A DNA stretch of 38,470 nt. Origin: a virus. Position 1 is the first letter of the stretch. Each line of letters opens with the position of its first letter. Positions 1 to 38,470 of the stretch are shown in pieces. The notes beneath the pieces were generated by a model. That model was not told the origin of the DNA and did no database searches. It was given only the letters and a program-made list of their open reading frames with translations. The DNA lies in IMG/VR virus record IMGVR_UViG_3300007735_000702, positions 1 to 38,470 of that record; one strand, given 5' to 3'. Made by a program: the position numbers and the translations under genes.

Positions 1-611
1 GTTTGGCTTACGTCAACTTCTGTCCATTCAATACCAGTTGATAGCACGATGTCAGGCGGTGCTAGCGCAACATTGGGGGCGTTGCCGCTAGTGATCGTGC
101 CGCCTTCACTTACCACCAGGTAGTAGCGGTTGTTTGCAGTGGCAGCGGCTGGTAGTGGTGAGCCTTCAACCAAGCCAATTGCAGTGCCTTCTGCTGTAAC
201 TGAAGCTACGTGACCGGTGCCGCCTCCTGCTGATGCGTCAAATGTACCAGCAAATACAATCTCACCAACTGAAATACCAATCGGCTGGAATACGTTGCCA
301 TCCCAAAGGAAAAGATCGCGGCTTAGTGGGTTGAAAAAGTACTGTCCTATAAAATCAGCAGTTGGTTGCGTATCGCCAATCTTGCAAACAGCATAATTGG
401 CTAGTTTTGCACCTGTTACAGTATTGCTAGCAATACGAGCAATATCTATTGAGCCTGTTGTAATCTTGCTGGCATCTAGGTTTGGTATGTCACCAGCAGC
501 TAATGCAGCACCTGCGGTAACAACACCTTTACTATTTACTGTTACTTTTGGATATTCAGTCCCACCTGCAACGTTTGCTTGGGTTGCTAATAATAATTGA
601 TTACTACCGTT
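1..611. repeat. Contig-end overlap, left copy
   Basis: Bases 1-611 match 37860-38470 without gaps. Only 15 substitutions separate the copies, all between 90 and 180, and all are silent in the fibre reading frame (for example GGC ACG ATC versus GGC ACT ATA). The rest of the 611 bp is identical. The simplest reading is an overlap of the two ends of a circular or circularly permuted genome, with two strain haplotypes in the assembled population. A true terminal redundancy carrying a variant patch is the alternative. Confidence 0.9.
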
Positions 612-1376
612 AAGGCCAAACTCACCGCCGATCTTGATGCCACCTAAATCGCTAGTTGTAGCAACAGCAGTAGACAAAATGCCGTTGCCATCTACTGCTA
701 AACCAGTGCCAGCAATAACAGCTCCTTTAACGGCAGTTGTTGCAACTGGTAAATCTGCTGCGACTAATGCAGCAGTGCTGGTAATGTGACCTTGCGCGTC
801 ATAACTGATCCCGCTGCGTGTGCTAGCACCACCTGCAACTGAATTGCTGTGGCTTAATGCACCACCGCCCGTGAGCGCTAGGCCACCTGCTGCTGGTATG
901 GATACACCGCCAACAACAGCGCTGGTAGCAACTGGTACATCAGCACCAGCAAGCGATGTGCCAACAGTTACGTGGCCTCGCGTATCAACTGTGACCTTTG
1001 TATAAGTGCCAGCAGTAACACCGCTAGTGCCATGCTCCAGACTACCGGTGCCTGCATTACGAACAATCGGGCTGGTAGGTGCTACCAGTTGCAAATTACT
1101 ACTGGCAACCGTTACACCACCAGTAACTGGGATGGTGCTGGTATCAAGCTTAGATGCTGCAACCGTACCAGCCGTGAGGTTGGTGCCGCTAATGCCGCTT
1201 AGGTTTACCTTGGCAACTGGTATTGATGCGTCATCAACTAACGCAGCGCCTTGCTGCACTAAATTCTTAACTGTAATTTTCTTGGTATCACTGCCTGCAA
1301 TTGAATATACGGGCAACACATCTGCTGCTGCTGGCGTTGTTTCAGCGTTTAGCTGGTCTATACGCTGGTTGGCCAT
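1..1376 (-). CDS. Tail fibre protein, N-terminal part (3' end cut by the contig edge)
   Basis: The frame starts at an ATG that shares one base with the stop of the preceding gene (TAATG) and is open to base 1. It continues without a frame change into the minus-strand frame at 37859-36212, giving 1376+1648=3024 nt, or 1007 aa. The N-terminus MANQRIDQLNAETTPAA is followed by fibre-type repeats of the kind KVTVDTRGHVTVG, ATSAVVGGVSIP and ATTAVKGAVIAGTGL, typical of beta-rich trimeric phage fibre shafts. Next comes a segment found in many fibres (GQYFFNPLSRDLFLWDG). Position after the tip genes, low complexity and Ala/Thr/Gly/Val richness support a receptor-binding fibre. The receptor is unknown. 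Confidence 0.85.
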   Translation of the reverse strand, partial: MANQRIDQLNAETTPAAADVLPVYSIAGSDTKKITVKNLVQQGAALVDDASIPVAKVNLSGISGTNLTAGTVAASKLDTSTIPVTGGVTVASSNLQLVAPTSPIVRNAGTGSLEHGTSGVTAGTYTKVTVDTRGHVTVGTSLAGADVPVATSAVVGGVSIPAAGGLALTGGGALSHSNSVAGGASTRSGISYDAQGHITSTAALVAADLPVATTAVKGAVIAGTGLAVDGNGILSTAVATTSDLGGIKIGGEFGLNGSNQLLLATQANVAGGTEYPKVTVNSKGVVTAGAALAAGDIPNLDASKITTGSIDIARIASNTVTGAKLANYAVCKIGDTQPTADFIGQYFFNPLSRDLFLWDGNVFQPIGISVGEIVFAGTFDASAGGGTGHVASVTAEGTAIGLVEGSPLPAAATANNRYYLVVSEGGTITSGNAPNVALAPPDIVLSTGIEWTEVDVSQ

Positions 1377-32526: not shown

Positions 32527-33392
32527 GTTGCAGGCTCGCAGGTGATTTCAACGCCAGAACTAGCGCGTGGTCGTAGCTTAAGCCATATACCGCCAAGTGA
32601 TTTAGGCATTACAATTTTTTCGATTGCAAATCCACCGCCGCCTTTAAATTCTTGTTTGTAAGTGCCTGTTTGTATATGCCAGCGTTGCTCTATTCGTTGC
32701 TCGCCTTTGTTATTAATTCTATAACATGGATGCGCCACAATTGTGCGTTCATGATTATGACCATTAACTATTACATCAGCATCAGGCATGATGCTGGCAT
32801 ATCTACCGCCGCCCAATGTGCCTTTTGTTATTACACCACCCCAAGTGCCATGGTGGAATCCAAGAGTTAATCGCCTGATTTTTTCTTGTTTTTGTTGGGC
32901 GGCATCTTCCATATAAAAAGTAAACCATACAAAGCCTTGATAACGCATATGTTCTACAGGGCTGCCACTATCGCGCATGATGCGGACTACGTTACCAAGT
33001 GGATCAACTTCGTTGTGGTTGATGATTGCTGTTTCGTGATTACCGTCTGACATCATTACGATGTCATCTTGCCAAGGCTTTAGCCATGTTGCAGTTTCGT
33101 TAAATACTAAGTCAAAATAGTTGCCACCTAAATGTTCTGGCCTTATATCGCCTTTACTGCCACGTCTATCTTTTTTGCCTTGCATTAGGCACATTATATC
33201 ACCAAAGAAAAGCGCCTTACCTTGGCGCTCTTTCATTTCATCTAAATGCTTTTTGAAAAGCTTACGGTCGCATTTTGGGTTATCAAGGTGGATATCGGAT
33301 GCAAGAAAGAAATTATATTGCGATGTAGTTGAGGTATAGGGAACCCGTATTTCTGTTAATTCTGGGCTGTGACGGATTACATCGCATTTCAT
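32523..33392 (-). CDS. Calcineurin-like metallophosphoesterase
   Basis: This 289-aa enzyme has the full metal-binding set: SDIHLD (Asp33, His35), FFGDIM (Asp65), DGNHET (Asn118, His119), GFHHGTWG (about 178-185) and NGHNHERT (His212, His214). It is expected to hydrolyse phosphodiesters or phosphoanhydrides with two metal ions. It lies between the endolysin and an HNH nuclease, so its substrate is not obvious; phage relatives include DNA-repair and signalling-nucleotide phosphatases. It overlaps the endolysin stop by four bases. Confidence 0.85.
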   Translation of the reverse strand: MKCDVIRHSPELTEIRVPYTSTTSQYNFFLASDIHLDNPKCDRKLFKKHLDEMKERQGKALFFGDIMCLMQGKKDRRGSKGDIRPEHLGGNYFDLVFNETATWLKPWQDDIVMMSDGNHETAIINHNEVDPLGNVVRIMRDSGSPVEHMRYQGFVWFTFYMEDAAQQKQEKIRRLTLGFHHGTWGGVITKGTLGGGRYASIMPDADVIVNGHNHERTIVAHPCYRINNKGEQRIEQRWHIQTGTYKQEFKGGGGFAIEKIVMPKSLGGIWLKLRPRASSGVEITCEPAT

Positions 33393-34782: not shown

Positions 34783-35030
34783 TCAGCCTTACGGCTTAAT
34801 GAGATTAGTGTGGTGAGCACTCCCATCATAGACGCAATTGCACGGCTATCACTATCGCTACAGGTAGGCTGTGGCTCGATCGCTTTGCCATCTGGTGTGC
34901 CGACATATTTGGCATACCATGGCCATGCAGTTGGCCATACATAAAATCTACATGCCGCCCATTGCGCTGTGATTAAAACCATGATGGCGATGGAGGTGCC
35001 AACGATGGATCGCACCAGCCATGGCGGCAT
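34779..35030 (-). CDS. Membrane protein in the lysis cluster, holin or spanin candidate
   Basis: In this 83-aa product residues about 6-29 (LVRSIVGTSIAIMVLITAQW and following) form a transmembrane helix. A polar loop with two Pro and Cys residues comes next (DGKAIEPQPTCSDSDSRA). A shorter hydrophobic helix (AIASMMGVLTTLISL) is near the C-terminus. Two spans with both ends inside would suit a class II holin. It overlaps its neighbours by one to four bases. Confidence 0.6.
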   Translation of the reverse strand: MPPWLVRSIVGTSIAIMVLITAQWAACRFYVWPTAWPWYAKYVGTPDGKAIEPQPTCSDSDSRAIASMMGVLTTLISLSRKAD

Positions 35031-35269
35031 CAGCGCACCTCAAGCTTGCTGACGCGGTTTTCCACTTTATTTAAGCGATCAAATGTCTCGCGACGGTCGG
35101 CCTTGATGTCCTCGTGTAATGTTTCTAGGCTTCCGGCGATATGCTCAACTGCGCTGGTTAGCCTGATAATTGCGGCGGCGGCTTCTTCATTGCGGCGGCT
35201 AAACCCGAACAACCCCATCGCCGCTACGCCGATGCTGGCACCAACAGTAGCGGCAAGAATTTCGATCAT
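35030..35269 (-). CDS. Membrane protein with coiled coil, holin-like
   Basis: This 79-aa product has an N-terminal transmembrane segment (IEILAATVGASIGVAAMGLF, about residues 2-21), then a basic FSRRNEE and a long charged helix (EHIAGSLETLHEDIKADRRE) ending in a coiled coil (FDRLNKVENRVSKLEVR). One span plus coiled coil resembles XhlA-type hemolysin/holin accessories in reverse order. It lies between two other small membrane genes and upstream of the endolysin. Role in membrane disruption is inferred. Confidence 0.6.
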   Translation of the reverse strand: MIEILAATVGASIGVAAMGLFGFSRRNEEAAAAIIRLTSAVEHIAGSLETLHEDIKADRRETFDRLNKVENRVSKLEVR

Positions 35270-35273
35270 ACGC

Positions 35274-35378
35274 TCATTCTACCGGGTCAGAATCCTGATG
35301 ACGTGCTGCCATTGCTAAAAGACACCAGCCGATCAGGAGCAGGGCTAACAGGAGCAGGGCTCCAATTGCTGTAATCAT
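35274..35378 (-). CDS. 34-aa single-span membrane protein in the lysis cluster
   Basis: The ATG at 35378 lies two bases after the stop of the 82-aa gene, and the frame ends four bases before the next ATG. The product MITAIGALLLLALLLIGWCL followed by LAMAARHQDSDPVE is one transmembrane helix with a short acidic tail. Tight packing between coupled genes and an uninterrupted Leu/Ala/Ile stretch support a real micro-protein. Tiny holins of this size exist, so it is a holin candidate. Confidence 0.6.
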   Translation of the reverse strand: MITAIGALLLLALLLIGWCLLAMAARHQDSDPVE

Positions 35379-35380
35379 TG

Positions 35381-35629
35381 TTACTGCAACGCTGCTTCAA
35401 TGTCTGCGCGAGATGCAAAACCCCATGCCGCAGCAGCACTGGCATTCCATTCGCGGCGGATTACTGGAACAACAAATCCGTCGTCACCTTCCACGAGGGT
35501 GCGGTCATAATCCACGGGATATACTGCATCATCAAATGTGATGTAGTCATTTAGCAGGTTTGTTAGAAACGCTGTGTGCTCTGGGCTTGATGGCGCTTCT
35601 CGCAGGTCTGTGGCGGTGTTGATCAGCAT
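35381..35629 (-). CDS. 82-aa protein after the fibre, unknown (chaperone possible)
   Basis: The product begins MLINTATDLREAPSSPEHTA and continues FLTNLLNDYITFDDAVYPVD, with EGDDGFVVPVIRREWNASAA and a final helix DIEAALQ. It is acidic, with a mixed fold. In many siphoviruses a small acidic gene follows the fibre and helps its folding; here an inserted HNH gene on the other strand separates the two. No direct motif confirms a chaperone. Confidence 0.5.
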   Translation of the reverse strand: MLINTATDLREAPSSPEHTAFLTNLLNDYITFDDAVYPVDYDRTLVEGDDGFVVPVIRREWNASAAAAWGFASRADIEAALQ

Positions 35630-35655
35630 GGCAATAAGTGAAAGGGAGTAAGATT

Positions 35656-36222
35656 GTGGAGCAGCGGTGCGTCAACACCCTGCCCCGTGTCCACCTCACC
35701 TTTAATGAGATGACAATTAAGCATAAACCGCTTCCTGCAATTGATGAACTGCATAAGCTTTTTGAATTGCGTGATGGTGTATTGATCCGTAAGACTGGCA
35801 AAGGTGGCGTAAAGATTGGAACACCAGCAGGCAGCCCAATCCTTAATGGCGGTCACATTTGTGTCAGTATTGGTGATTCTCGCTATCTGGCGCATCGACT
35901 GATTTGGATGCTGTCTACAGGCGAAGACCCTGGTAAATATCAAATTGATCACATTAACGGCAACCGAATTGATAACCGCATCGAGAATCTGCGAAAAGTA
36001 ACGCATCAACAAAATGGAATGAACCGAAGCAAGCCTCAGTGCAATTCGCATAGTGGCGTTATAGGCGTTTGTTGGCGCAAGAGCAGCAACAAGTGGGAAG
36101 CTACAATTCACCACAACGGCAAAACTATTTTCTTGGGTTTGCATAAAACCAAAGAAGCTGCACTCGCTGCAAGAATTATTAAAGAGCAAGAGTTGTTTGG
36201 AGAACATGCACCTAACCGGTAA
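35656..36222 (+). CDS. Homing endonuclease, HNH_3 plus AP2-like domain
   Basis: The product carries ELRDGVLIRKTGKGGVKIGT, HICVSIGDSRYLAHRLIWML, the HNH_3 core KYQIDHINGNRIDNRIENLR, then an AP2-like DNA-binding part (SHSGVIGVCWRKSSNKWEAT and FLGLHKTKEAALAAR). This is the domain order of free-standing phage homing nucleases. It is alone on the plus strand between fibre and lysis genes, overlapping the fibre's last 11 nt, so it looks like a later insertion. GTG 35656 is preceded by AAAGGGAG at seven bases; GTG 35638 and ATG 35710 are alternatives. Confidence 0.85.
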   Translation: MEQRCVNTLPRVHLTFNEMTIKHKPLPAIDELHKLFELRDGVLIRKTGKGGVKIGTPAGSPILNGGHICVSIGDSRYLAHRLIWMLSTGEDPGKYQIDHINGNRIDNRIENLRKVTHQQNGMNRSKPQCNSHSGVIGVCWRKSSNKWEATIHHNGKTIFLGLHKTKEAALAARIIKEQELFGEHAPNR

Positions 36223-36346
36223 CTATATGCTCACAACAAAAACGACCGCCAATGCCGTCGCTACCGGAGGACGGAAAGTTGCTCCAGTCGGCGAATCGTG
36301 AACCTGAGGCAGCCCCGTCGTTCCAGGTGCCACCCAAGCGGAGAGC
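36212..36346 (-). other. DGR-target-like C-type-lectin segment at the fibre tip
   Basis: The last 44 codons read ALRLGGTWNDGAASGSRFAD, WSNFPSSGSDGIGGRF, CCEHIVTG. The spacing GG-x-W-x-D-G-A-x-x-G-S-R, then P-S, then I-G-x-R and a final C-E-H matches the variable end of lectin-fold phage fibres that are targets of diversity-generating retroelements. GC content is about 62-70% at 36241-36360 against roughly 45% at 36601-36660. No reverse transcriptase or template repeat was found in the window, so it may be a fixed lectin tip. Confidence 0.55.
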
Positions 36347-38470
36347 GCGAGGGGCGTCTGCATATTCCGTGCCACGACCGCCAGTGTTGGCATTAGAGCC
36401 GGAGGTGTAAATGCCTACACGTTCAATCGCCCATACATATAATGTTCCAGTGGCCTGCGCCAGGCCCCATTTGCTAGCACGTTCCCATTGCACTGTGCCA
36501 GGGTCAGAGCCTCTGGTGCCTGCTTCAGGCGCACCAAATGCAGCAGCTTGAAACTCCCAACTGTGCATAAATCGTTTACCAAAACTATGTGCTACCTCAG
36601 CAAAATTGTACCAACTACCTGGGTTATTACCGCCCGTCAGTGAATATGCTGTGCTGCCATTGCCGCCGTAGAAGCTAGGAATCAATGCAGGACTGCTGTT
36701 ATCGGCAATCGTAAGGCCAATCTTGCTGCTTGGTACGGCACTAAATGTTGTATTTGCATAGCTAGTGGCGCCGCATAAATATAAATCACACCAAAAACGG
36801 CCATCAATACATGCCATACCGCGAGGATCTGGGCATGTAGGGCGCCACGTTAAATCCCAAATGCTATATTCCAGTATTTCAGCCGCAGCAGTAGGACTAC
36901 CGTTATTGAATGCAGTTGGTCTGCCACTTGGGATGTAATGGTATCCGCCAACAATGCTGCCGCCTGTAGCACCTGCTGGTGCAGTAACAAAACTAGCATC
37001 ACTGACTAATGCCCCGGTTGTCGGGTGCTGCCAAATTGCCATATCAGTGTTATTGGTATGAGCGCCCATTGTTACGGCAGTAGCACTGGCGTAATACTGG
37101 CCATTAAGTACTGCCCCAGCAGCAACACTGATAGTAGTAGCAGCAGTTTTACTAAATAATGGCCCGCGATGTAATGCTGGGCGGCGGTTGTACAGGATCG
37201 TGCCGCCAGATGGTGTGGAGAAACTTAATACGCCTGAACCGTTAGTGCCAAGTACTTGGCCATTAGTACCATCAGCCGCCGGTAGCGTCCACAGCACATC
37301 CGCCGCTATGCTCGCCGGGGCTTGGAAACCAACGTAATTAGTACCATTCGCAGTTGCTTCGCGGAATCGCGCATCACCTTGATTGTCTAAAATTACATTA
37401 TCAAGCGTTGGTGTACCAGCAATAAAGTTACCGCTTGCATCCCTAGCAACAATTGCCGATGCAGTATTAGCACTAGCAGCAGTGGTGGCGCTATTGCTTA
37501 CTTTGCCAGCAGTTGCGATCGTTGCAAGTTTAGTATCTACAATCGCTGCACTAGCGTTGATGTCAGCATTAACAATCGAAGCATTACCGCTAACAATTAC
37601 AGTGCCAGTTTCGTTTGGCAGCGTGATTGTACGGTCAGCCGTTGGATCTACTACTGCAATAGTAGTTTCAAATGTATTAGCAGTGCTACCTTCAAAACTT
37701 AAACTACCTGTTGTGCCAATTTCAAGATTGCCGGTCATTGTGCCACCAGCAAGTGCTAGCTTTTCATTATTTACTTCTTCAATTGCGGCCTGAACGTTAG
37801 TTGCTGCAATCGTGCTTTCTGGCGTGAATGCAACTTGTGATGCGCTAACACTGGTGAATGTTTGGCTTACGTCAACTTCTGTCCATTCAATACCAGTTGA
37901 TAGCACGATGTCAGGCGGTGCTAGCGCAACATTGGGGGCGTTGCCGCTTGTTATAGTGCCGCCTTCGCTTACCACTAGGTAGTAGCGGTTATTAGCAGTA
38001 GCAGCCGCCGGTAATGGCGAACCTTCCACCAAGCCAATCGCAGTGCCTTCTGCTGTAACTGAAGCTACGTGACCGGTGCCGCCTCCTGCTGATGCGTCAA
38101 ATGTACCAGCAAATACAATCTCACCAACTGAAATACCAATCGGCTGGAATACGTTGCCATCCCAAAGGAAAAGATCGCGGCTTAGTGGGTTGAAAAAGTA
38201 CTGTCCTATAAAATCAGCAGTTGGTTGCGTATCGCCAATCTTGCAAACAGCATAATTGGCTAGTTTTGCACCTGTTACAGTATTGCTAGCAATACGAGCA
38301 ATATCTATTGAGCCTGTTGTAATCTTGCTGGCATCTAGGTTTGGTATGTCACCAGCAGCTAATGCAGCACCTGCGGTAACAACACCTTTACTATTTACTG
38401 TTACTTTTGGATATTCAGTCCCACCTGCAACGTTTGCTTGGGTTGCTAATAATAATTGATTACTACCGTT
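36212..38470 (-). CDS. Tail fibre protein, C-terminal part (5' end cut by the contig edge)
   Basis: The frame is open from the contig end at 38470 to its stop at 36212 and, by the end overlap, continues the gene starting at 1376. Middle segments include IAATNVQAAIEEVNNEKLAL, GTMTGNLEIGTTGSLSFEG and ADRTITLPNETGTVIVSG, all common in phage fibre shafts. The last 300 residues form a separate tip beginning near TILYNRRPALHRGPLF, with CIDGRFWCDLYLCG and TVQWERASKWGLAQATGTLY. It ends in a C-type-lectin-like segment (ALRLGGTWNDGAASGSRFAD). The tip probably binds the host receptor. A GC-rich jump over the last 140 bases is notable. Confidence 0.85.
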   Translation of the reverse strand, partial: NGSNQLLLATQANVAGGTEYPKVTVNSKGVVTAGAALAAGDIPNLDASKITTGSIDIARIASNTVTGAKLANYAVCKIGDTQPTADFIGQYFFNPLSRDLFLWDGNVFQPIGISVGEIVFAGTFDASAGGGTGHVASVTAEGTAIGLVEGSPLPAAATANNRYYLVVSEGGTITSGNAPNVALAPPDIVLSTGIEWTEVDVSQTFTSVSASQVAFTPESTIAATNVQAAIEEVNNEKLALAGGTMTGNLEIGTTGSLSFEGSTANTFETTIAVVDPTADRTITLPNETGTVIVSGNASIVNADINASAAIVDTKLATIATAGKVSNSATTAASANTASAIVARDASGNFIAGTPTLDNVILDNQGDARFREATANGTNYVGFQAPASIAADVLWTLPAADGTNGQVLGTNGSGVLSFSTPSGGTILYNRRPALHRGPLFSKTAATTISVAAGAVLNGQYYASATAVTMGAHTNNTDMAIWQHPTTGALVSDASFVTAPAGATGGSIVGGYHYIPSGRPTAFNNGSPTAAAEILEYSIWDLTWRPTCPDPRGMACIDGRFWCDLYLCGATSYANTTFSAVPSSKIGLTIADNSSPALIPSFYGGNGSTAYSLTGGNNPGSWYNFAEVAHSFGKRFMHSWEFQAAAFGAPEAGTRGSDPGTVQWERASKWGLAQATGTLYVWAIERVGIYTSGSNANTGGRGTEYADAPRALRLGGTWNDGAASGSRFADWSNFPSSGSDGIGGRFCCEHIVTG
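37860..38470. repeat. Contig-end overlap, right copy
   Basis: This is the partner of bases 1-611. It encodes the same fibre residues, and the 15 differences (equivalent to 90-180 of the left copy) leave the protein unchanged. Because the fibre frame runs through it, removing one copy yields a single uninterrupted fibre gene. See the left copy for interpretation. Confidence 0.9.

Follow-up and report, generated by a model that had tools for sequence, protein, structure and literature searches.

The window analysed here, a stretch of viral DNA of 38,470 nucleotides (IMG/VR record IMGVR_UViG_3300007735_000702), carries a long minus-strand fibre gene whose 3' end faces an inverted endonuclease gene and two small genes. 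Its features are listed below with reference to diversity-generating retroelements (DGRs), in which a variable region (VR) is paired with a template repeat (TR) and a reverse transcriptase (RT).

1 to 611: left contig end, overlapping 37860 to 38470 without gaps (596/611 identity)
3 to 1376, minus strand: N-terminal part of the Mtd-type fibre gene, across the circular junction, assigned by the 611 bp and protein sequence common to both ends
35030 to 35269, minus strand: next syntenic gene (MIEILAATVGASIGV...), found in cyanophage KBS-S-2A too
35381 to 35629, minus strand: small gene (MLINTATDL...), putative right border of the lost cassette by synteny with relatives
35638 to 36222, plus strand: HNH_3 + AP2 homing-type endonuclease gene, inverted, in the place of avd, TR and RT; likely start ATG at 35710
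36170 to 36211, minus strand: position of the relatives' hairpin (GGCGC-GACA-GCGCC or like), absent in the window
36212 to 38470, minus strand: C-terminal 752 codons of the same Mtd-type fibre gene, predicted receptor-binding (PF21916, phrog_11262, 1yu4)
36232 to 36250, minus strand: position of the initiation region (IMH), in which 7 of 19 nt depart from the nearest relative TR
36232 to 36348, minus strand: VR core, 117 nt, collinear with TR/VR of RT-bearing relatives
37860 to 38470: right contig end, pairing with the overlap at 1 to 611

The fibre gene stops at 36212, and its protein ends in ...LGGTWNDGAASGSRFADWSNFPSSGSDGIGGRFCCEHIVTG*. The initial annotation had likened this end to a lectin-fold tip of the kind diversified by DGRs, whose targets in phage fibres are textbook knowledge. 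The motifs are present, and homology both confirms the guess and makes it precise: the last ~315 residues are related to the major tropism determinant (Mtd) of Bordetella phage BPP-1, a classic DGR target, with matches to Pfam PF21916 mtd_2nd (8.7e-17), phrog_11262 (7.8e-107) and PDB 1yu4 (residues 438-750, 1.4e-51). These alignments cover both the middle and the C-type-lectin domains of Mtd. Among annotated phages, tblastn matched the fibre to VR1 of BPP-1 (43% identity) and, at 52-53%, to the genes named 'mtd' in Synechococcus phages S-CBS1 and S-CBS3. In structure prediction, five Mtd variants were the only significant Foldseek matches, but the models were weak (mean pLDDT 39, then 54), and prediction is therefore kept as a minor check only. 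Homology thus identifies the fibre as an Mtd-type receptor-binding protein. The cysteines of the terminal FCCEH were considered as a mark of DGR loss and rejected, since BPP-1 Mtd itself ends in VCDHLI and no general rule holds.

An RT lies next to the VR in 16 of the first 37 IMG/VR relatives. RT-bearing relatives share the order mtd with its VR, stop codon, hairpin, avd, TR, RT and two small genes, avd being the usual accessory gene of functional DGRs; in the phages among them, the cassette lies directly downstream of mtd. Across the relatives, 33 TR-VR pairs were compared. Template adenines are changed in the VR at 507 of 898 positions and other bases at 26 of 2963, which is the signature of adenine mutagenesis. 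The RT-bearing relatives closest to the window in the tree are L002 and L016.

Some loci of the family have unusual arrangements. L016 (8824-8940) combines a full-length RT with a template that has only 13 adenines and VR-like codons, and its VR differs from its TR at 14 of 104 non-A sites; it seems that the template was overwritten by VR-type sequence (a burnt-out template), or that the assembly is chimeric. At L031 (1383-1898) a fusion joins the VR to the 3' side of the TR, avd is lost and an intact RT lies directly behind, evidently a deletion by VR-TR recombination. The RT-bearing phage L017 (6286-6630) has ~22 codons deleted in-frame within the VR, and L001 (2551-4928) contains two mtd-type genes in tandem, each with a VR-like tip, the second without an RT behind it.

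No RT was detected in the window by Pfam RVT_1 or by a profile built from the RTs of its relatives, which did detect the positive controls BPP-1 and L016; a match to this profile at 32655-32879 (11 bits) falls inside an unrelated gene and was rejected as chance. Neither was avd found in the window, and an adenine-tolerant scan of both strands revealed no second copy of the VR: apart from the VR itself, no site comes closer than 28 non-A mismatches in 117 nt, while most true TR-VR pairs have 0-3. The RT searches and the scan bear out the earlier reading that the window holds neither an RT nor a duplicate of the segment. An Rfam scan of 35300-36700 found nothing.

The neighbouring gene contains an HNH_3 domain (1.1e-18), with an AP2 domain marginally below its cut-off, and fills precisely the interval from mtd to the gene found behind RT in relatives. 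The latter gene (MLINTATDL...) comes after RT in RT-bearing relatives and directly after mtd in DGR-less ones, and the same two small genes follow mtd in the window and in RT-bearing relatives. HNH_3 was absent from all 15 relatives tested; relatives of the HNH gene are common in unrelated phages (36-45% identity). It is conceivable, if very unlikely, that this endonuclease now cuts the locus, with or without its cassette, in co-infecting phages and provokes gene conversion that spreads fibre tips among them ('intronless homing'), in which case new tips would come from recombination where they once came from reverse transcription.

Since the window has no TR, the AAC positions of its VR were assigned from the TR of a relative (L002). 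At these positions the window codons are ACC AAC GAC GCC TTC GAC AGC AAC TCC AGC GAC GGC, encoding T, N, D, A, F, D, S, N, S, S, D and G. All 12 are NNC, with bases 1 and 2 variable and base 3 always C (P = 1.2e-6, computed from the codon usage of the fibre gene itself), as expected of a former DGR target, in which only the first two bases of TR AAY codons should vary. This imprint demands DGR ancestry and indicates that the window VR was made by a DGR.

The signals that accompany an active VR have fared differently. According to Guo et al. (PMC3240598), a VR needs three things: an IMH that functions, a hairpin/cruciform behind it and homology to the TR. The GC-rich hairpin with a GRNA-like loop is absent behind the window VR. 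Its exact form is present at 34 of 37 RT-bearing loci vs 7 of 21 DGR-less loci (Fisher 5e-6, uncorrected for kinship), the three RT-bearing exceptions being L125, whose hairpin is kept but follows a stop codon that has been lost, L142, where it is imperfect, and the VR-TR fusion of L031. The IMH was identical (0/19 differences) in 13 of 13 true TR-VR pairs checked, and the 3' initiation region of the window is unlike the TR of every relative. Judged by these elements, the window VR is no longer a good DGR target, and the window has none of the marks of a functional DGR that were sought: RT, TR, avd, an IMH identical between TR and VR, and hairpin.

The window tip is very probably an orphaned DGR target, now fixed, whose cassette has been lost, and thus a relic rather than a new system. 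The initial annotation had listed a relic among its options, and the missing RT, avd and TR, the NNC imprint and the loss of hairpin and IMH all support it. Homology, the relatives' cassette, its absence from an essentially complete genome, the codon imprint and the lost cis-signals are all read from sequence; that the ancestor was active, in what order the events took place and that the tip is now fixed are inferred. In an ancestor of this Synechococcus-type siphovirus, adenine-mutagenic retrohoming from an avd-TR-RT cassette downstream of mtd would have diversified the C-type-lectin tip of the fibre. This cassette would later have disappeared from the interval that separates the mtd stop codon from the following gene, through deletion or through replacement by the HNH gene, which now fills its slot in inverted orientation. 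Hairpin and IMH would have eroded afterwards or gone in the same event, leaving a fixed receptor-binding surface that stems from one past round of diversification and presumably evolves like the rest of the gene. Because the window itself retains no remnant of an RT, its own loss is deduced from synteny and codon imprint. A vague resemblance has in this way been turned into a recognisable fossil.

A tip still being diversified in trans, whether by a host DGR or by that of a co-infecting phage, would agree with the intact VR framework and the 12 uneroded NNC codons, and co-infection is conceivable given that close relatives bear RTs. Such activity by a DGR of known kind is nevertheless highly improbable because the hairpin is missing and the initiation region is altered: breaking the stem in BPP-1 lowered tropism switching >1000-fold (PMC3240598), and the IMH, identical in true pairs, departs here from even the nearest TR. 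A TR with the window's 3' end (GGCGGTCGTTTTTGT-) and a hairpin-independent route would both be needed. Searches for a matching template elsewhere, using a TR-like 3' pattern, gave no match among viral contigs and two among genome contigs, both rabbit-gut Bacilli and judged to be chance. In another DGR-less lineage, four contigs with slightly different flanks share one identical VR, a weak sign of freezing. VR diversity in DGR-less lake contigs was considered as proof of continuing diversification and rejected, since their backbones differ by 13-24%.

An orphaned DGR target also has to be weighed against an ordinary lectin tip swapped in by recombination. Tip exchange is frequent among phage fibres, and the initial annotation had taken the sharply GC-richer end of the gene as a possible replacement from another source. 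The rise is real (GC 0.62 in the 117-nt VR vs 0.50 in the preceding 600 nt) but not extreme within the gene, where 78 of 2142 sliding windows are equally high. The VRs of relatives have a GC of 0.63-0.73, and nearly all relatives checked show the rise, S-CBS3 being the one exception; as a normal property of VRs in this Mtd family, it is no sign of a swap. The fibre backbone has L002, L004, L001 and L016 as its nearest kin in the Mtd tree and the non-A sites of the VR are nearest to L002, so that there is no discordance between the two. The DGR ancestry demanded by the NNC imprint largely refutes a swap, which is even less probable than diversification in trans.

The orphaned target lies in an essentially complete circular genome. 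The 611-bp end overlap (98% identity) gives a circular map of ~37,859 bp, with the fibre gene (3-1376 + 36212-38470) spanning the junction. Cyanophage KBS-S-2A (40.7 kb) has a portal 78% identical to the window's, and the two genomes are collinear in running from tail through small genes, sigma, exonuclease, terminase, portal and head to tail. The overlapping ends and this collinearity point to a siphovirus of about 37.9 kb, probably with a Synechococcus-type host. That the window is a contig fragment with its RT on an unsequenced part of the genome is the least probable explanation, even though IMG/VR classes the record as linear: the ends overlap inside one gene, the full gene set is collinear with KBS-S-2A, and the site directly behind the VR, where relatives have the RT, is sequenced and holds the HNH gene.

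The 15 mismatches in the overlapping ends (1-180 vs 37860-38039) fall between 90 and 180, nearly all in one codon phase. They look like differences between two strains whose fibre genes have diverged locally, and given this clustering the record may have been stitched from two strains. L092, 90% identical to the window, breaks just before the VR, and the contigs L022, L029, L032, L036, L092, L124 and L141 end inside or just before it; such breaks may reflect VR diversity, or assemblies broken by VR/TR repeats.

Cassette loss has happened repeatedly among the relatives of the window. In a quick tree of the Mtd framework, many forks of which are unresolved, the RT label has to change 13 times, and well-supported branches force at least 6 of these changes. 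The window belongs to a supported clade with 18 rows, of which 9 lack and 8 carry an RT. The direction of change is read as loss because C-terminal RT fragments lie directly behind mtd in S-CBS1, S-CBS3, L033/L037, L078 and L098. The hairpin alone is kept in L001 and L087, and neither hairpin nor RT fragment is found in L004, L005-L012, L030, L102, L109, L114, L115 and the window. One phage family thus offers a graded series, from the intact cassette through a burnt-out template, a VR-TR fusion and an RT fragment with hairpin, to loci where the cassette is gone and the hairpin remains and, finally, those where both are gone. Recurrent loss suggests that the tip-randomising machine can be discarded, and the series allows one to ask when targeted hypermutation is given up by phages. 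No earlier report of graded, repeated cassette loss was found in the open-licence papers searched, and this pattern in a cyanophage family is a more interesting by-product than the window itself. The mtd-annotated isolates S-CBS1 (L066:3897-4050) and S-CBS3 (L034:8405-8560) have a hairpin and a decayed RT C-terminus behind mtd.

Inactivated DGRs have been reported by DiGReF (PMC3521204). They resemble the window in having lost RT function but differ in that VR/TR pairs and a broken RT are still in place, whereas the window lost the whole cassette along with the cis-signals. S-CBS1 and S-CBS3 are complete cyanosiphovirus genomes with a DGR-less Mtd that is 52-53% identical over the last 133 aa; both retain the hairpin and a C-terminal piece of the RT, while the window has neither and carries an HNH gene. 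Compared with the Mtd/DGR system of BPP-1, the window is without avd, TR, RT and hairpin, its IMH is altered and an HNH gene sits in the slot. It nevertheless encodes an Mtd homologue over 313 residues, with the VR at the extreme C-terminus in the same conserved spacing, and its relatives share with BPP-1 the order mtd-VR, hairpin, avd, TR and RT.
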